From: Nitrosomonas sp.
GTDB lineage: Bacteria > Pseudomonadota > Gammaproteobacteria > Burkholderiales > Nitrosomonadaceae
Assembly (NCBI RefSeq): GCF_019752415.1
Contig: NZ_JAIEME010000025.1
Location: 1 to 64,000 of the forward strand
Direction: 5' to 3'
Length of the DNA stretch: 64,000 bases
Shown: positions 47,435-62,315 of the stretch, piece by piece
How the letters are laid out: every line of letters begins with the position of its first letter
Position numbering within the stretch: position 1 is the stretch's first letter
Notes under the pieces: generated by a model
What the model saw: the letters and a program-made list of their open reading frames with translations, nothing else
Told to the model about the DNA's origin: nothing
Database searches by the model: none
Program-made: the position numbers and the translations under genes

Positions 47435-48577
47435 TTACTGTTGTTTAGGCCGTATACCTACTTTGACTTGGATTGTTTTTTCCTGCTTATTGCGGATCAC
47501 AGTGACCGCAACCGTGTCGTTGGGTGATAACGCCGCAACCCGATTAAGCATGTCTGATGAATTCTTCATCGGCTTACCTTCGACAGCTATGATGATATCG
47601 CCAGGTTTGATGCCCGCCTTGTCTGCCGGACCATCTCTGAGCACACTCGCCACCAAGGCTCCGATTGGATTATCTAGGCCAAAAGATTCTGCCAGGTCTT
47701 GTGTCATATCCTGCATACTGACACCCAACCAGCCTCGAGTCACGCTGCCAGACTGGATAATTTGTTCCATGACCTGTTTAGCCACATGAATAGGAATGGC
47801 GAAACCAATGCCCAGTGAACCACCGCTGCTGGAATAAATCGCCGTATTAATACCGATCAAGTTTCCAGACGTATCGGTCAGCGCCCCTCCCGAATTACCC
47901 GGATTGATCGCCGCGTCGATTTGAATAAAATCTTCAAAAGTATTAATCCCAACTCGGCTCCGGCTCATTGCACTGACTATACCCATGGTAACACTTTGCC
48001 CGACGCCAAAGGGATTTCCTACTGCCAGCACCACATCACCGACCTTAACCTGTTGTGACTGGCCAAAAGTAATGGCAGGTAATTCTTTCAGTTTTATCTT
48101 CAGCACTGCCAGATCTGTTTCAGGATCTGAGCCGATAATGCTCGCTTTGGCTTTTCTACCGTCGACCAAGGCAATTTCAACTTCATCCGCAGCTTCCACC
48201 ACATGATGATTGGTCAATATATAGCCATTAGGACTGACAATCACGCCGGAACCCAGACTTGATGTACGGCGCGCTTTGGTTTCAGATTGTTCACCAAAGA
48301 ATCTGCGAAACATGGGGTCATTCAGCAACGGATGAGAAGGTTCTTCTTTTATTTCTTTACGGGTGAAAATGTTGACAACGGATGGCATAGCTATTTCGGC
48401 CGCCTTGGAATAACTGTCTGATCTTTCCGCATCAACGACAGGTGCGGCCTCTTTGACCGTCACGATTTCTCCCCGGGGTTTCCAGGGAAGCAATTCAGGC
48501 CGGAGCGTGGAGATCACAAAAAAAATAGCCAGCAATACCGCAGCCGTTTGTGCAAAAATCAACCAGAGTCTGTACAT
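47435..48577 (-). CDS. DegS/DegQ-like serine protease with one PDZ domain
   Basis: The 380-residue protein is an HtrA-family protease. A membrane anchor is at the N-terminus (LIFAQTAAVLLAIFFVIST). The catalytic residues are visible: His in GYILTNHHVVEAADEVEIAL, Asp in GSDPETDLAVLKIKL, and Ser in AAINPGNSGGALTDTSGNL. A single PDZ domain follows (VASVLRDGPADKAGIKPGDI). One PDZ plus an anchor is the DegS layout, which starts the sigma-E envelope stress response; without RseA nearby this is an inference. The start is the ATG at 48577. It is divergent from the Nif3 gene. Confidence 0.9.
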   Translation of the reverse strand: MYRLWLIFAQTAAVLLAIFFVISTLRPELLPWKPRGEIVTVKEAAPVVDAERSDSYSKAAEIAMPSVVNIFTRKEIKEEPSHPLLNDPMFRRFFGEQSETKARRTSSLGSGVIVSPNGYILTNHHVVEAADEVEIALVDGRKAKASIIGSDPETDLAVLKIKLKELPAITFGQSQQVKVGDVVLAVGNPFGVGQSVTMGIVSAMSRSRVGINTFEDFIQIDAAINPGNSGGALTDTSGNLIGINTAIYSSSGGSLGIGFAIPIHVAKQVMEQIIQSGSVTRGWLGVSMQDMTQDLAESFGLDNPIGALVASVLRDGPADKAGIKPGDIIIAVEGKPMKNSSDMLNRVAALSPNDTVAVTVIRNKQEKTIQVKVGIRPKQQ

Positions 48578-48650
48578 CAAAGCGTGTCACTCCAAAATTA
48601 AAATTATTGCGGTACTATTGATAGTAGTATATGCGCGAAGGAGAAAATCA

Positions 48651-53061: not shown

Positions 53062-53137
53062 GGCGAATTAGCTCAGTGGTTAGAGCAGCGGAATCATAAT
53101 CCGTTGGTCCCCAGTTCGAATCTGGGATTCGCTACCA
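53062..53137 (+). tRNA. tRNA with anticodon CAU (Met elongator, or Ile2)
   Basis: A full cloverleaf is present: acceptor GGCGAAT pairs with ATTCGCT (first pair G-U), D-arm AGCTCAGTGGTTAGAGC, anticodon loop ATCATAA with CAT at the anticodon position, T-arm CCCAGTTCGAATCTGGG, and an encoded CCA end. CAU could be elongator Met or, with lysidine, Ile2 for AUA codons; the anticodon-stem sequence fits elongator Met, while the D-loop also fits Ile2. It is not the initiator, since there are no three G-C pairs in the anticodon stem. The integrase gene lies 382 bp downstream, so its 3' end probably serves as the island attachment site. Confidence 0.95.
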
Positions 53138-53519: not shown

Positions 53520-54599
53520 ATGGCAAATATCGAAAAGCGTGTTTCTAATGATGGAAAAATCAGTTATCGGGTAAAGATAAGATTAAAAGGTTATCCAAGC
53601 CAATCCGCCACATTTGAACGCCTTACTGATGCGAAGAAATGGACGCAGCAAACAGAATCAGCAATTCGTGAGGGTCGCCACTTCAAAACCACAGAAGCGA
53701 AACGCCATACCCTAACCGAATTGATAGACCGCTATTGCCGGGATGTATTAGCTAAAAAAACAAAGAATGCCCGAGACCAAATACGGCAATTTGAATGGTG
53801 GAAAGCTGAAATAGGTAGTCATGCCCTATCAGATGTAACACCGTCTCTGCTTGTTCAGTACCGTGACAAACTAACTAATGGCATGACTTCGCATGGTAAG
53901 CTTCGCTCACCAGCTACCGTGAATCGGTATATGGCCGCCCTATCAGTTGCCTTCACTACAGCCGCAAAAGAATGGGGATGGATTGATGATAACCCCATGC
54001 GCAAAGTAACCAAGCCCAGAGAATCACGCGGGCGCGTTCGTTTCTTGTCCGATGAAGAACGTATATGCTTATTAAAAGTCTGCAAAGAATCCAGCAGCCC
54101 ATATCTATACCCTGTTGTGGTGCTGGCATTGTCTACTGGAATGCGCCGAGGTGAAATTATGGGTCTGACTTGGGACGTGATAGATTTAAACCAAGGCCGT
54201 GCAATACTGCATGAAACTAAAAACGGCGAACGCCGCGCCGTGGCGATTACTGGTCATGCTTTGGAATTATTAAAGGAATTGTCCAAAGTTCGCCGGATTG
54301 ATAGCAATTTAATTTTTCCATCCAAGGAAAACGCACCACAAAAGCCACAGAAGCCTATAGATTTACGCACACCATGGGAAACAGCCGTAAAAAAAGCCGA
54401 GCTACAAGATTTTAAATTTCATGACCTACGTCATAGTGCTGCAAGCTACTTGGCTATGAATGGCGCAAGCCTAGCCGAAATTGCCGAAGTATTAGGACAT
54501 AAAACCTTGCAGATGGTTAGGCGATACGCTCATCTATCGGAAGGCCATACCGCCCGCGTAGTGGCTTCCATGAACGACAAGATTTTTGGAAACGTGTAG
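53520..54599 (+). CDS. Tyrosine-type site-specific recombinase (island integrase)
   Basis: The 359-residue protein has an Arm-binding N-terminal domain (MANIEKRVSNDGKISYRVKI), a core-binding domain (about residues 65-165) and a catalytic domain. The catalytic residues are visible: Arg in LALSTGMRRGEIMGLTWDVI, His-x-x-Arg in KFHDLRHSAASYLAMNGAS, His in EVLGHKTLQMVRRYAHLSEG and the Tyr nucleophile in RRYAHLS. It would move the island by strand exchange at the tRNA. All catalytic residues are intact, so the enzyme may be active. Confidence 0.95.
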   Translation: MANIEKRVSNDGKISYRVKIRLKGYPSQSATFERLTDAKKWTQQTESAIREGRHFKTTEAKRHTLTELIDRYCRDVLAKKTKNARDQIRQFEWWKAEIGSHALSDVTPSLLVQYRDKLTNGMTSHGKLRSPATVNRYMAALSVAFTTAAKEWGWIDDNPMRKVTKPRESRGRVRFLSDEERICLLKVCKESSSPYLYPVVVLALSTGMRRGEIMGLTWDVIDLNQGRAILHETKNGERRAVAITGHALELLKELSKVRRIDSNLIFPSKENAPQKPQKPIDLRTPWETAVKKAELQDFKFHDLRHSAASYLAMNGASLAEIAEVLGHKTLQMVRRYAHLSEGHTARVVASMNDKIFGNV

Positions 54600-55591: not shown

Positions 55592-55887
55592 AGGCACTTG
55601 CTCAATCACTTCAGAACGTTAAGGCTTATATTCGCCCCGTTGATTTTTACCGCAGCGAATTACCCGCAATGCCGCCGCAGCGTGGCAGTGGATGGCGTGA
55701 TGGCGGATTATGTCCATTTCATCTTGATAAGCACGCCGGAAGCTTTCGAGTAAATCTTGAAACCGGTGCTTTCCTTTGCTTTTCTTGTGGTTCCAAGGGT
55801 GGGGATATTATCGCATTCATTCAACAGCGAGACGGCCTGAGCTTTCCGGAAGCAGTGCAAAAACTATCGAATGAATGGGGGTTATGA
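55588..55887 (+). CDS. CHC2 zinc-finger protein (primase N-terminal type)
   Basis: The 99-residue protein is a stand-alone CHC2 zinc finger, as found at the N-terminus of DnaG-type primases. The metal ligands are in GGLCPFHLDKHAGSFRVN (Cys, His) and ETGAFLCFSCGSKGGDIIAF (two Cys). Zinc-finger and primase functions are split here: the TOPRIM domain is in the next gene, which overlaps by four bases. Together they would make a primase of the integrated element. The same split is known in phage and island genomes. Confidence 0.88.
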   Translation: MKALAQSLQNVKAYIRPVDFYRSELPAMPPQRGSGWRDGGLCPFHLDKHAGSFRVNLETGAFLCFSCGSKGGDIIAFIQQRDGLSFPEAVQKLSNEWGL

Positions 55888-57095
55888 TGCAGGGCATACC
55901 CGAAAAATTCAAAGGCAAACTGCGCCGATTTGTTTGGGAGTATCGAAACCCTCAAAGTGAAACACTTGGTTATGTTGCCCGCTTTGATGATGATGGCAAG
56001 AAGAAAGAGATTGTGCCCTATTTTAAACGCAGCAACGGGCGCGACTGGCAGCATGGCAGCGCAATCGAACCGCGCCCATTGTTTGGATTGGATGTATTAA
56101 ATCAAGCTGAACTTAAGCGTGCTGTATTCATTGTTGAAGGCGAAAAAGCCGCCACAGCCTTGCAATCTTTGGGATTGGTGGCGATTACTTCGCAAGGCGG
56201 TAGCAAAGCAGCCCTTAAAACAGACTGGAAACCATTAAATGGGCGTGAATTCGTTTATATGCTTCCTGACAATGATGAGGCTGGGGAAAGCTATATTAAG
56301 GTCGTGGCTGCAATCCTGATGAACCTTGATAAACCGCCTACGATAACCATAGTACGTTTACCCAATCTTCCGCCTGCTGGTGATGTTGTTGACTGGATAA
56401 CATCTAAAATTGTTGAAGTTTTACTGGATTGGGATGGTTATGAGCCAATACCAAAAAGTGTGATTGATAATGGCACTTTGCTGAATGATTTTAAAGAAGC
56501 AGTAAAACAGCATAGCGAACCAGTGCCCGATGAATGTAAAGCTGATTCAGAGCAGCTAAATATGAACAACTGGCCAGCGCCTATCAGCTTGGAATCCGTC
56601 AGGCTTCCGCCATGGCCGGATGATGTCTTTCCTGGCAGCATTCAGGACTTTGTAACTGCTTTAAGTAAATCCACAGAAACCCCGCCTGAATTATCTGCAA
56701 TGATGGTGCTGGCAGCAATCAGCGCCGCCGCTCAAGGCAAATACCGGGTGCGTGTTAAAGCTGATTATTTTGAGCCTGTAAATATTTGGACATGTGCAGC
56801 GCTTCCACCGGGTAGCCGGAAAACAGCCGTACAAATGGCAGCAACTGCGCCGTTGACCAAATGGGAAAAACTGCAACGTGAAGAATTAGAGCCTGCAATT
56901 CAGAAAGCACAAGCCGATGATGCAACCATACGCGAACAAATAAACTTCTTACGCAAACAGGCAAGTAAAGCCAAGGGCGCAGAGTTTGAACAGCTAAAAA
57001 AAGAGATTGCCGATATTGAATGTTGTAGGGCGGGTTATTTGGTATGGGCGAAGAATATGAAAAATATTAAATCATGCATTTATTGTTTATGTTAG
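55884..57095 (+). CDS. TOPRIM/DUF3987 primase-helicase, truncated at the C-terminus
   Basis: From ATG 55884 the protein has 403 residues. The first part is a TOPRIM fold: AVFIVEGEKAATALQSLGLV with the metal-binding Glu, and FVYMLPDNDEAGESYIKV with the DxD. From about residue 255 a DUF3987 domain starts (TPPELSAMMVLAAISAAAQG, IWTCAALPPGSRKTAVQMAA, where GSRKTAV is a Walker A-like loop). Proteins of this kind are usually much longer; here the coiled part EQLKKEIADIE runs into unrelated codons (about 57018 onwards) and stops. The gene is probably cut by an insertion or deletion and so non-functional or a truncated form. Confidence 0.82.
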   Translation: MMQGIPEKFKGKLRRFVWEYRNPQSETLGYVARFDDDGKKKEIVPYFKRSNGRDWQHGSAIEPRPLFGLDVLNQAELKRAVFIVEGEKAATALQSLGLVAITSQGGSKAALKTDWKPLNGREFVYMLPDNDEAGESYIKVVAAILMNLDKPPTITIVRLPNLPPAGDVVDWITSKIVEVLLDWDGYEPIPKSVIDNGTLLNDFKEAVKQHSEPVPDECKADSEQLNMNNWPAPISLESVRLPPWPDDVFPGSIQDFVTALSKSTETPPELSAMMVLAAISAAAQGKYRVRVKADYFEPVNIWTCAALPPGSRKTAVQMAATAPLTKWEKLQREELEPAIQKAQADDATIREQINFLRKQASKAKGAEFEQLKKEIADIECCRAGYLVWAKNMKNIKSCIYCLC

Positions 57096-57131: not shown

Positions 57132-58487
57132 ATGGAAGAATTCGATAACCAATCAGAAGCTCTAATTACTGCAGCCAAAAATGAATTGGCGCGTCGAGGA
57201 ATGCCGTTTTCAGAAAAAAATTTTATACGCTACGTAAAAAGTGGTAATGCTAATGCGGTGCAACTGTATTTACGTGCGGGTATATCACCAAATGCAAGAC
57301 TTGATACGGAAAGTGCCTTAGCCGCCTCAGCGAATCATGGCCACAGGCAGATAACAGAACTACTTCTTAACGCTGGCGCTAATCCCGTTTCTTTGCTGGA
57401 TGGTCTTAAAATCAGCAAATCTTCACGAGACGTTTGGGATCGACTATCGAGTCTTACAGGGGTATTTACCTTTCTTTCTAGCTTGTTCATTGCAGCTATT
57501 GGGTGGCATTTTACTAGCTCCTATAACGAGCGGCAACTAGCACTGACAAGTTCACAAGTGCGTCAAGAACAAGCGAATAAGCAATATCAAAATCGATTAT
57601 TAGAAATGCAAACCGTAGAAAAGATGATTCCCCACCTTATTAAAGATGAACCGAGCAAGCAAGCAGCTGTAATAGCTATTAGTGCTTTAGCATCACCCGA
57701 AGTCGCCGCACGAGTAGCAGAAACATATGGAGGACAAGGATCTATTAATGCATTAGCGCAGTTGGCAAGAACTGACTCGGCAAATTCATCAGCTCCCGCC
57801 ATCACGGCTCTGACTAACATTGCGTCACGTGAGTCGGAATCTTATAAACCGGCTCATGAGGCACTTGGCAGCGTGCTTGAAGGGAGAGATAGAGCAATCG
57901 TAAAGCTTTTGGAAAATGAAGTAGCCATTTGCAATGGTTTCGTAATTGGAGGGAAGCAAGGTTGGGTTGTAATACCAAGATACTGCATTGATCGAACTAA
58001 ATCGACAAAGTCCTTAATGTCGATCCAATTTGGGGATGGAAAGAAAGCTCAGGTCACTTCTCGAAGAAATAGTCCAGAAGGTTTGCTCGTTTTTCTGAAG
58101 CTAGATGCTGAATCGCCTACTTTTTTACATCTATCTAGAAAACAATTGCCAGTTGGAAGTGCTGTTTCTCACATCTCCTACCATCTAAACTCTTTAAACA
58201 CTAACGACCGTAGTCTACTTAGTATAGTTCTGGGGGTAGTAGTTGAGTCTGGAAAAATGTCATTTCTAGATGTAGTTTCCCGCGATAAGGATATTTCTGC
58301 ATATGGCTTAAAAGTAAAATTGAATATCAACAATCAAGACTATCTTTTAGGTACAGGAGGGGGTCCACTTCTAGATGACGAGGGAAATGTTGCATGTATG
58401 ACGTTTATGCGTGATGCAAAAGGCAATGAGCAATGCGTTTCTGCAGAAGTGATTTCAACTGCTCTCAGCTCATTAAAGGCTGAATAA
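57132..58487 (+). CDS. Ankyrin-repeat membrane protein with an inactive trypsin-like domain
   Basis: The 451-residue protein has a layout I do not recognise as a named family. Residues 31-87 form two ankyrin repeats (GNANAVQLYLRAGISPNA, GHRQITELLLNAGANP). Residues 109-127 are one membrane helix. Residues 165-250 look like HEAT-type helical repeats. Residues about 265-450 resemble a trypsin-fold domain: GFVIGGKQGWVVIPRYCI, then EGLLVFLKLDAES and LLGTGGGPLLDDEGNVACM. In active enzymes these are TAAHC, DLALLKLD and GNSGGP or GDSGGP. Here the His is Tyr284, the Asp is Gly317 or Leu318, and the Ser is Gly409, so all triad positions are lost. It would be a membrane-bound binding or scaffold protein. 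It is cargo next to a truncated element gene. Confidence 0.7.
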   Translation: MEEFDNQSEALITAAKNELARRGMPFSEKNFIRYVKSGNANAVQLYLRAGISPNARLDTESALAASANHGHRQITELLLNAGANPVSLLDGLKISKSSRDVWDRLSSLTGVFTFLSSLFIAAIGWHFTSSYNERQLALTSSQVRQEQANKQYQNRLLEMQTVEKMIPHLIKDEPSKQAAVIAISALASPEVAARVAETYGGQGSINALAQLARTDSANSSAPAITALTNIASRESESYKPAHEALGSVLEGRDRAIVKLLENEVAICNGFVIGGKQGWVVIPRYCIDRTKSTKSLMSIQFGDGKKAQVTSRRNSPEGLLVFLKLDAESPTFLHLSRKQLPVGSAVSHISYHLNSLNTNDRSLLSIVLGVVVESGKMSFLDVVSRDKDISAYGLKVKLNINNQDYLLGTGGGPLLDDEGNVACMTFMRDAKGNEQCVSAEVISTALSSLKAE

Positions 58488-58953: not shown

Positions 58954-59319
58954 ATGAAGAAAAAATTATCACTTACATTAATAGCAGCAATCCTCCTGCT
59001 TAATGGATGCGGATCAGTCAGAGAAAATAGAATCAGACAAGATGTATTATCTGACAACAGCATGCCGGAAGAAATACGCAGGGCGATCGATCTTAAGGAG
59101 CTGGTCGTTGGCATGACACAAGAACAAGTGATAGCTTCCTGGGGGCTTCCTTGTAAATGGTGTTATGGAACGCGCAAAAGCGCAAGTGGAGACACATGGG
59201 AATACCATCTTCCCGGCGCTGATTTTTTAGTGGTTGGCGCTGATTTTTTGGGTGTTGGAACCGGAACTTATGTGTACTTTGATAGCAGCCAAAAACTTAA
59301 GCACTGGTCCCAAAAATAG
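58954..59319 (+). CDS. Small SmpA/OmlA (BamE-like) lipoprotein
   Basis: The 121-residue protein has a lipobox (LLNGC) and a compact C-terminal domain with LKELVVGMTQEQVIASWGLP, the BamE/SmpA motif (xGMTxxQVxxxxGxP), and DTWEYHLPGADF. In the core Bam complex BamE is elsewhere on the chromosome, so this one is an extra or unrelated envelope lipoprotein. A seven-residue unit, GADFLVV-GADFLGV, is duplicated by an in-frame 21-base tandem copy. It lies inside the island. Confidence 0.75.
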   Translation: MKKKLSLTLIAAILLLNGCGSVRENRIRQDVLSDNSMPEEIRRAIDLKELVVGMTQEQVIASWGLPCKWCYGTRKSASGDTWEYHLPGADFLVVGADFLGVGTGTYVYFDSSQKLKHWSQK

Positions 59320-59372: not shown

Positions 59373-60877
59373 TTAATCTGACAGCGCCGCTGCAATTTCT
59401 CTGAAGCTGTTCAGCCCGGCCTCAAGATTCTCGATGATTTCACCCGCCAGCACATCCGGCTCGGGCAGATTGTCCAAATCGGCCAAACTCTTATCCTTTA
59501 GCCAAAAAATATCCAGACTGGTTTTGTCGCGTGCGATGATTTGCTCATAACTGAATTTGCGCCAGCGGCCCTCCGGATTGCTTTGCTCGTTCCATGTCTC
59601 CTTGCGCTCGTGGCGGTTCAGCGGGTTATAGCAAGTGATGAATTCCTGCAAATCCTCAAAGCGCAGCGGTTTCTTTTTTAACGTGTGATGGATATTGGTG
59701 CGGTAATCGTAATACCAGACTGCTTTTGTCCACGGTTCTTTGCTGGCTTCCCGGTTATCAAAAAACAGCACGTTTGCTTTCACGCCGTTGGCGTAGAAAA
59801 TGCCGGTAGGCAATCGCAAGATCGTGTGCAAATCGGTGGTTTCCAGTAGTTTCTTGCGTACTGTTTCCCCCGCCCCGCCTTCAAACAGCACATTATCCGG
59901 CACCACCACCGCAGCCCGCCCGGTTGTTTTCAGCATGGTGCGGATATGCTGCACGAAGTTGAGTTGTTTGTTGGAAGTCGTTGCCCAGAAATCCTGCCGG
60001 TTATAAGTCAGATCGTCTTTTTCCTGTTCCCCTTCATCATTGGTGAAACTCATCGCGCTCTTCTTGCCGAACGGCGGATTCGCCAGCACGTAATCGAAGC
60101 GGCGCCCGGAATCAGCCACTAGCGCATCATTGGGCGAAATCATGCTATCGCCGTCGATCTCGCCAATGTTATGCAAAAACATATTCATCAAAGCGAGTCG
60201 GCGTGTACTCGCGACAATTCATTGCCGAAAAACGTTTCGTATTTGAGAAATGCTTTTTGTGTTTTATCCATCGCATGCTCGGCGACCAGAAAATCATACG
60301 CCGCCAGAAAGAATCCGCTTGTGCCGCACGCCGGATCGGCAATGGTCTTGCCGGGTTCCGGGCGCACGCATTGCACCATTGCCCGGATCAATGCGCGCGG
60401 CGTGAAGTATTGCCCTGCACCGGACTTGGTATCTTCCGCGTTGCGTTCCAACAGTCCCTCGTAGATGTCGCCCTTCACATCAGCGCCCATCGTCACCCAC
60501 TGGGTTTCGTTCACCATATCGATCAGGCGGTACAGTTTGGCCGGGTCCTGGATTTTGTTTTGCGCCTTGGTAAAAATCGTCCCCAGCATTCCCGGCTTTT
60601 TGCCCAGCTCCATCAGCAGCGTCACATAATGCACCTCCAGTTCCGCGCCACGCTTGAGCTTAAGGCTTTGCCAGTTGTACTCGGCAGGAATATCCACGGT
60701 GCGGTTATACGGCGGCTGGCTGTATTCATCCGCCATCTTCAGGAAAATCAAATACGTGAGTTGCTCCAGATAATCGCCATAACCCACCCCGTCATCGCGC
60801 AACGTGGTGCAGAAACTCCAGACTTTTGAAACGATGGAGCAGTTGCGTTCATGTCTTTGCCCCGAATACTTCGTCAT
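59373..60877 (-). pseudogene. hsdM: Type I restriction-modification methyltransferase subunit, frameshifted
   Basis: Two open parts, 60188-60877 and 59373-60191, together make one HsdM. The first part has SKVWSFCTTLRDDGVGYGDY, AEDTKSGAGQYFTPRALIRA and TIADPACGTSGFFLAAYDFL (AdoMet motif I). It ends after FFGNELSRVHADSL. The second part, one frame over, continues with RRLALMNMFLHNIGEIDGDS and FDYVLANPPFGKKSAMSF (motif IV, NPPF). The natural reading FFGNE..ASTRRLALMNMF shows that a base is missing (or two are extra) near 60210-60217. A second frame change may lie near the start, since MNATA at 60852 is in another frame than IVSKVW. The gene should be inactive, unless this is a sequencing error. 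Confidence 0.85.
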
Positions 60878-61230: not shown

Positions 61231-61270
61231 ACCCTTACTAAAGGGTAATTACCCTTACTAAAGGGTAATT
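61231..61270. repeat. Tandem 20-bp palindromic repeat at the 3' end of fic
   Basis: ACCCTTACTAAAGGGTAATT occurs twice in a row without change (61231-61250, 61251-61270), followed by the partial copy ACCCTTTCTT; TACCCTTACTAAAGGGTA is itself a palindrome. It begins at the fic stop, so it may act as a terminator on the minus strand. Confidence 0.7.
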
Positions 61271-62315
61271 ACCCTTTCTTTTTCCATCGAGCCGCTGGAC
61301 CTCTGCCCTGGCATTCGACTGCGTTTGCATTTTGCTGCTCGCGCAAAACACGACGCACCATGTCTTTGCTCACACCGGGACAAGACTGCTCCACCTGAGC
61401 CACAGTAAATTCGCCCACAAAGCGGTCGATAGCTGCCAACACCAGATTGGTTTTCGAGCCGCGTGGCGCTTTCACTTCACCCACACACTCAGAAAATTCG
61501 CGGTAAGCCATCTTGAGAATGGACAACACGTAGTTGATGTAAGGCCACGGATCATGCTTGCCATCATGCCAACCCTGCGAGCTGTGCTCCAGCGTCTCGT
61601 AATAGCGATTCTTGTTTTCTTCGATCAAACGCTCAAGGCTGATATAGCGCCCCACCTCATAGCCCGATTGATAACACTGAAGCAAAAGCGCCAACCGCGA
61701 CACGCGCCCGTTGCCATCGCGGAAAGGATGAATGCACAGAAAATCCAGATTGAATGCCGCCATCGCAATCAGCGGATGCGCCCAACGATCATCCAGGCAA
61801 TGCTGCCAATCAGTAACCAGCTCCATCATTGCGGCAGGGGTGCCCGCCGCAGACACCGGGCGGAAACGCACCCGTTCACGACCATTCGCATAACGCTCGA
61901 TGATGTCGCCGTCTTTTTCCTTGTATTGGCCCGCATCCCAGATTTGCCCGCGTGCCAGCCGGTGCAGCTCGCATATCGCCGCCTCGCTCACCGGCATGTG
62001 CGCAGCCCCTTCATGAATGAGCTTCAACGCATCGCGATAGCCGCGCACCTCTTCCTCGTCGCGATCCCGGAACAAAGGATTGGCCGCAACCAGCACCTCG
62101 CGCACCCGCGACGGATCAACCGACACGCCTTCGATACGGTTGGAAGAAACCGCGCTCTCGATCAGCGCATGCTCGCGCAGGGTTCTCAGCCGCTGCGGCG
62201 ACTGCTGCGTATAAAGCGCCTGCTTGCCGCGGAATTCGCCGAGATCGGCGAGATACCAGGATGTGCTTGCGGGAATGGAAAAATCTTTTAAAGCAAAAAG
62301 GTGCAGCGTGTTCAT
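61269..62315 (-). CDS. fic: Fic-family AMP-transferase (class II) within the type I RM locus
   Basis: The 348-residue protein has the Fic motif LDFLCIHPFRDGNGRVSRLA (HPFxDGNGRxxR, with all key residues). Upstream it has the inhibitory helix ALIESAVSSNRIEGVSVD, with the S-x-x-x-E-G motif that marks class II Fic proteins and keeps them self-inhibited. The C-terminus is a helix-turn-helix-like domain (VEQSCPGVSKDMVRRVLREQ), so it may bind DNA. Fic enzymes attach AMP to Ser, Thr or Tyr of target proteins. Its ATG overlaps the hsdS stop by four bases (ATGA), so it is translated with hsdS. Confidence 0.92.
   Translation of the reverse strand: MNTLHLFALKDFSIPASTSWYLADLGEFRGKQALYTQQSPQRLRTLREHALIESAVSSNRIEGVSVDPSRVREVLVAANPLFRDRDEEEVRGYRDALKLIHEGAAHMPVSEAAICELHRLARGQIWDAGQYKEKDGDIIERYANGRERVRFRPVSAAGTPAAMMELVTDWQHCLDDRWAHPLIAMAAFNLDFLCIHPFRDGNGRVSRLALLLQCYQSGYEVGRYISLERLIEENKNRYYETLEHSSQGWHDGKHDPWPYINYVLSILKMAYREFSECVGEVKAPRGSKTNLVLAAIDRFVGEFTVAQVEQSCPGVSKDMVRRVLREQQNANAVECQGRGPAARWKKKG

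Follow-up and report, generated by a model that had tools for sequence, protein, structure and literature searches.

The 64,000-nucleotide stretch of Nitrosomonas sp. DNA analyzed here (contig NZ_JAIEME010000025.1, positions 1 to 64,000; hereafter the window) contains at positions 57132 to 58487 a gene for a protein composed of ankyrin repeats, a single membrane helix, a conserved helical module and a C-terminal trypsin-like domain that lacks the catalytic triad. The protein has this layout, and the fold of each part is predicted from structural models. The features of the gene, all on the forward strand, are as follows.

57132..58487, + strand: whole gene, 451 amino acids (ankyrin repeats, membrane helix, helical module, pseudo-trypsin), with an ATG start and an uninterrupted frame
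57204..57389, + strand: ankyrin repeats, about residues 25-86 (Pfam and PDB ankyrin matches, model helices)
57444..57500, + strand: single hydrophobic membrane helix, residues 105-123 (hydrophobicity scan, model secondary structure)
57603..57881, + strand: conserved helical module with QTVEKMIPHL, about residues 158-250 (conservation, own model)
57897..58484, + strand: predicted pseudo-trypsin domain of the HtrA type, residues 256-451 (AlphaFold2, Foldseek, VIA)
57930..57932, + strand: C267, the first of four invariant Cys, the others being C285, C422 and C435 (alignment)
57981..57986, + strand: Y284-C285, Tyr in place of the catalytic His followed by an invariant Cys (alignment, hhalign)
58083..58085, + strand: L318, at the position of the catalytic Asp (alignment, hhalign)
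58350..58367, + strand: GTGGGP (residues 407-412), the Ser loop kept with G409 in place of Ser (alignment)

Residues 256-451 are predicted to adopt a chymotrypsin/HtrA double-barrel fold on the basis of the AlphaFold2 model and of Foldseek and VIA matches, the Trypsin_2 match of this domain (E 3.7e-4) being below the Pfam cut-off. The original prediction, made from the nucleotide sequence, proposed a trypsin fold at the C-terminus with all three catalytic residues replaced, and both proposals are borne out, the first of them at the level of structure prediction. The catalytic positions were assigned with hhalign by comparing an alignment of the window protein and 14 relatives (15 rows) with 20 relatives from the wider family that share the helical module, 19 of which have His, Asp and Ser and one of which (P0048) is devoid of the Asp. 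In this comparison (probability 100, E 1.8e-50) the catalytic His falls at Y284, the Asp at L318 and the Ser at G409. The same kind of replacement occurs throughout the 15 rows: the His position is occupied by Tyr in all 14 readable rows, the Asp position by Leu (12), Pro (1) or Gly (1) in 14 readable rows, and the Ser position by Ala (8) or Gly (5) in 13 readable rows, and none of the 14 relatives has His, Asp or Ser at a readable catalytic position.

Conservation was measured on the 12 longer rows, that is, the 15 rows minus the fragments P0011, P0013 and P0015 (P0007 and P0012 begin within the ankyrin part), in which the 11 relatives are 34-62% identical to the window protein. The stretch around the lost Ser (residues 405-424) is the most conserved among those measured in the domain, with a mean majority fraction of 0.817, compared with 0.524 across the domain as a whole and 0.452 in residues 325-402, and G407, G410, P412, L414, D415 and G418 are invariant. 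A second search using the 15-row alignment gained one N-terminal fragment of the clade (P0095, which enters no count) and nothing carrying the trypsin part; P0016-P0022 of the first search and the other ankyrin proteins of the second match over only 10-22% of the query, and both clade searches scored only about 8,000 candidates sharing most words. Since all readable rows of the clade are devoid of the triad and the second search adds no trypsin part, the loss is, as judged from these sequences, old and clade-wide and does not represent decay of a single copy; a trypsin-like fold is predicted, and among the readable rows there is no relative of the same layout with the triad. It had also been proposed that selection maintains the domain for its fold rather than for enzymatic activity. 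That it remains under constraint in this manner appears well supported by the clade-wide loss at 34-62% identity, the invariant Tyr, the four Cys and the conserved Ser loop.

The remaining parts of the protein are less familiar or less extensive. The ankyrin stretch is matched by Pfam Ank and Ank_2, both below cut-off, and by ankyrin structures in the PDB. In the AlphaFold2 model the membrane helix is the start of a 68-residue helix (residues 104-171). The helical module is well conserved (mean majority fraction 0.79 for residues 156-213 in the 12 rows) and its own model, with a pLDDT (predicted local distance difference test score) of 90, displays an arrangement somewhat similar to ARM/HEAT repeats, while comparison with the PDB gave no confident match. 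The statement of the original prediction that no named family has such a layout stands for Pfam, NCBIfam, PADLOC, PHROGs and the open-licence literature searched, the accessible portions of which describe no protein with ankyrin repeats, a membrane helix and a dead trypsin domain.

A wider family is defined by the module. A profile search of genome contigs found one relative, L005 (from a metagenome-assembled genome of Marinicaulis sp.), and the triad-bearing relatives obtained from genomes are L005 and L014. A search with these two proteins returned 72 proteins, of which the first 48 (P0023-P0070) were studied; the rest (P0071-P0094), mostly with PDZ according to precomputed Pfam domains, were excluded. 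The 43 trypsin-bearing rows exclude P0024 (the same as L014) and P0061-P0063, P0065, P0067 and P0070, which have no complete trypsin domain, and they represent 42 distinct proteins since one protein appears twice, as P0023 and as L005, with two different starts. The module common to these relatives and the window protein consists of KDxWDK, the membrane helix, QTVEKFIPHL and short helices. His, Asp and Ser are all present in 27 of the 43 rows, His and Ser in 30 (P0042, P0048 and P0051 keep both and have lost the Asp), and one or both of His and Ser are missing in 13. In P0061-P0063, P0065 and P0067 the module occurs with HEAT repeats, pentapeptide repeats or no listed domain: it precedes HEAT repeats in P0063 and pentapeptide repeats in P0067 and, according to precomputed domains, in P0065. 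This suggests that the C-terminal part behind the module is exchangeable.

In a tree of 55 rows built with the catalytic columns left out, the 12 ankyrin rows form a single clade (support 100/100) and the state of the protease domain, active or lost, changes at least 8 times; when P0052, P0055 and P0059 are removed as long branches (52 rows) there are 6 changes and the ankyrin group has a support of 100/99. Both trees are without the fragments P0011, P0013 and P0015, and "active" denotes here that His and Ser are kept, so that P0042, P0048 and P0051 count as active despite having no Asp. The direction of change is taken to be loss of activity because the triad is general in HtrA proteases. Replacement of His by Tyr also occurs in 8 of the 43 relatives, without the four Cys (P0040, P0043-P0047, P0068 and P0069), at three separate places in the tree. 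In L014 (8460-10590) a baseplate/PAAR gene cluster of the contractile-injection type ends with a protein kinase gene and, directly after it, the triad-bearing relative; as judged by eye, the kinase has a hydrophobic C-terminal stretch.

The four Cys bear on the membrane topology. Every readable row of the ankyrin clade has Cys at positions 267 and 285 (14 rows) and at positions 422 and 435 (13 rows), and at these four columns no Cys is found in the 50 rows of relatives in the same alignment, gapped rows included. C285 directly follows the former catalytic His and C267 is located 17 residues before position 284, with a spacing close to that of the Cys42-Cys58 pair of chymotrypsin, the position of which we take these two residues to occupy; in the model, C422 belongs to strand 420-427 and C435 to the next strand, 433-437. 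The pairs 267/285 and 422/435 thus appear to be placed for two disulfides, which would require an oxidising compartment. An alternative is that a metal or a small ligand is bound by the Cys together with the empty active site, in the way that the dead protease domain of MamO binds transition metals; by fold position, in the model and in chymotrypsin numbering, the two pairs seem more compatible with separate disulfides than with a single site formed by all four Cys, and a metal site is regarded as improbable.

In a hydrophobicity scan, none of the 15 ankyrin-clade rows, four of which start late, has a hydrophobic segment upstream of the module. Given the lack of an N-terminal signal and the Cys pairs placed for two disulfides, the simplest reading for this clade is that the ankyrin repeats would be inside the cell, in the cytosol, whilst the dead protease domain would lie outside it, in the periplasm. 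A number of observations weigh against this arrangement or against the interpretation built on it. An extra N-terminal hydrophobic segment occurs in 21 of the 43 trypsin-bearing relatives (37 reach upstream of the module and 6 start too late), and would place their trypsin domain in the cytosol, the module then working on both sides of the membrane; such opposite orientations are odd for a shared module. In addition, the counts of Lys and Arg flanking the helix do not decide the topology, L005/P0023 has a Cys one column before 267, the membrane helix of P0014, the most divergent member, is below the threshold used, and the ankyrin part comprises only about two repeats, below the Pfam cut-off in the window copy. 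The relatives with the extra segment, whose C-terminus is cytosolic by the usual rules, raise the alternative that the pseudo-trypsin domain of the window protein is also in the cytosol and its ankyrin tail translocated. This seems doubtful, as the ankyrin clade has no hydrophobic segment upstream of its module and possesses four Cys of its own, and an ankyrin pair is unlikely as a translocated tail.

On the basis of these sequence comparisons and predicted folds, the window protein may be a non-enzymatic transmembrane receptor or adaptor, a reading to which a probability of roughly 0.5 is assigned; binding is the best explanation because the fold and the conserved cleft loop have been kept without catalysis. 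A possible mechanism, the steps of which go beyond sequence and predicted fold, is that the ankyrin repeats would remain in the cytosol with the dead protease domain facing the periplasm, a peptide or unfolded protein end would be held, uncut, in the retained substrate cleft, the long helix after the membrane would pair two chains, and binding in the periplasm would alter the way in which a partner protein is bound by the ankyrin repeats on the cytosolic side. The sensing and signalling across the membrane suggested in the original prediction would be part of such a mechanism. A broader and more tentative proposal, considered possible at best, is that the module constitutes the functional centre of a bacterial membrane receptor family not yet described, with an exchangeable outer or sensing domain (live or repeatedly dead trypsin, HEAT or pentapeptide repeats), the ankyrin branch having flipped its orientation to become a disulfide-locked periplasmic peptide sensor with ankyrins that read out binding inside the cell.

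The gene is accessory, as it is present in 1 of 85 genomes of the genus, its own. The 15-row profile (E<=1e-10, own genome included) finds matches in 2 of 399 genomes from the order (the own genome and one with an ankyrin-only match), in 4 of 369 of the class and in 4 of 398 of the phylum; outside the own genome, a match over both the membrane module and the trypsin domain occurs in L014 only, the others being ankyrin-only or trypsin domains of other proteins. The module profile is matched by the own genome only (1 of 200 genomes of the order, 1 of 398 of the phylum).

To the left of the gene, a tRNA-Met gene (53062-53137) is followed by a phage-type integrase gene (53520-54599) located 2.5 kb from the pseudoprotease gene; a second copy of the tRNA 3' end (att repeat) was looked for and not found. 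The integrase gene is followed by three small genes, one of which encodes a CHC2 zinc finger, and then by a DUF3987/primase-helicase-like gene (55875-57095, + strand) that matches about 111 of the 364 profile positions, in the first third only, and ends 36 bases before the pseudoprotease gene. The position of this truncated gene gives the impression that the cargo gene next to it has taken the place of the 3' part of DUF3987. To the right, a gene on the same strand (58954-59319) encodes a small lipoprotein with a weak similarity to BamE (E 0.0075, below cut-off). The opposite strand carries a type I restriction locus that includes a Fic gene. In this locus hsdM (59373-60877, - strand) consists of two overlapping frames (60188-60877 and 59373-60191) matching positions 3-214 and 222-478 of one PADLOC model, either by a real frameshift or by an assembly error. 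The Fic-domain gene (61269-62315, - strand), SoFic-like in PADLOC, is located between hsdM and hsdS, and an hsdR-like frame recognized by eye occurs on the minus strand of L019, open at the end adjoining the window.

The proximity to the integrase gene at a tRNA gene and to a restriction locus, together with the rarity of the gene in the genus, invites the alternative that the protein is a membrane-bound sensor in anti-phage defence, the ankyrin part detecting, or being released by, a phage product and growth being arrested through the membrane. This is judged unlikely: PADLOC yields no full-length match to a system protein and gives only weak hits confined to the ankyrin stretch (E 1.4e-3 and 5.7e-3), Pfam matches no toxic or nuclease domain, and searches of the phage, plasmid and viral collections returned no relative.

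A receptor role for the window protein remains plausible from sequence and models. Like HtrA, DegP and DegS (family S1C) the window protein has the double-barrel fold, as predicted, but the triad is replaced, no PDZ is matched (Pfam, E<=1) and the protein ends with the trypsin domain; it adds ankyrin repeats in front, a helical module between the membrane and the protease domain, and four Cys. It matches neither TIGR02037 nor another curated HtrA model, the sole NCBIfam hit at E<=0.1 being a weak one to MzaA in the ankyrin stretch; L005 and L014 match TIGR02037 below cut-off. Further relatives are the membrane-module serine proteases (P0023-P0060, P0064, P0066, P0068, P0069, L005 and L014), which share the module and the trypsin domain but show no ankyrin repeats, often have the triad and the extra segment (counts above), and have no Cys in any of the four columns. 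In this family one domain occurs in both live and dead form behind a common membrane module, the trees indicating 6-8 changes from one state to the other, and the family allows one to ask what a protease fold does after catalysis is lost and whether receptor use came before the loss. The four new Cys and the missing N-terminal hydrophobic segment make the topology of the ankyrin clade easily testable.

In bacterial conflict systems of the vWA-MoxR type, dead trypsin domains in effector position are reported and proposed to be peptide binders or dominant-negative regulators (PMC7159879); these are fused to vWA components, unlike the window protein, and Pfam matched no vWA, MoxR or STAND domain in the nine neighboring proteins scanned. 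Trypsin domains fused to death-like adaptors are also described (PMC8195603). MamO is the one bacterial trypsin-fold pseudoprotease found described in detail in the open-licence literature searched; it is devoid of its own triad yet promotes MamE-dependent proteolysis and binds metal, and the authors of the study report that such catalytic losses arose independently in three groups (PMC4794232). By analogy, the dead domain of the window protein could act as a dominant-negative or allosteric regulator, joining mixed oligomers with the HtrA proteases of the cell in the periplasm or activating them, and the genome has two HtrA-type matches over the TIGR02037 cut-off, one of them in the window (47435-48580). 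This alternative is also considered unlikely in view of the absence of a PDZ match, an identity to the listed HtrA structures of 14-20%, which would make mixed oligomers improbable, and the lack of a second module-bearing protein in this genome at E<=1e-6. MamO and the window protein are alike in being trypsin-fold pseudoproteases apparently kept for a non-catalytic job, with repeated independent catalytic losses among their relatives, and differ in that MamO has a C-terminal TauE-like transporter domain (PMC4794232) whereas the window protein displays neither such a Pfam match nor a further hydrophobic segment. The ankyrin clade combines what characterizes a pseudoprotease, that is, a predicted S1 fold without the triad, with triad loss throughout the clade and a conserved fold.
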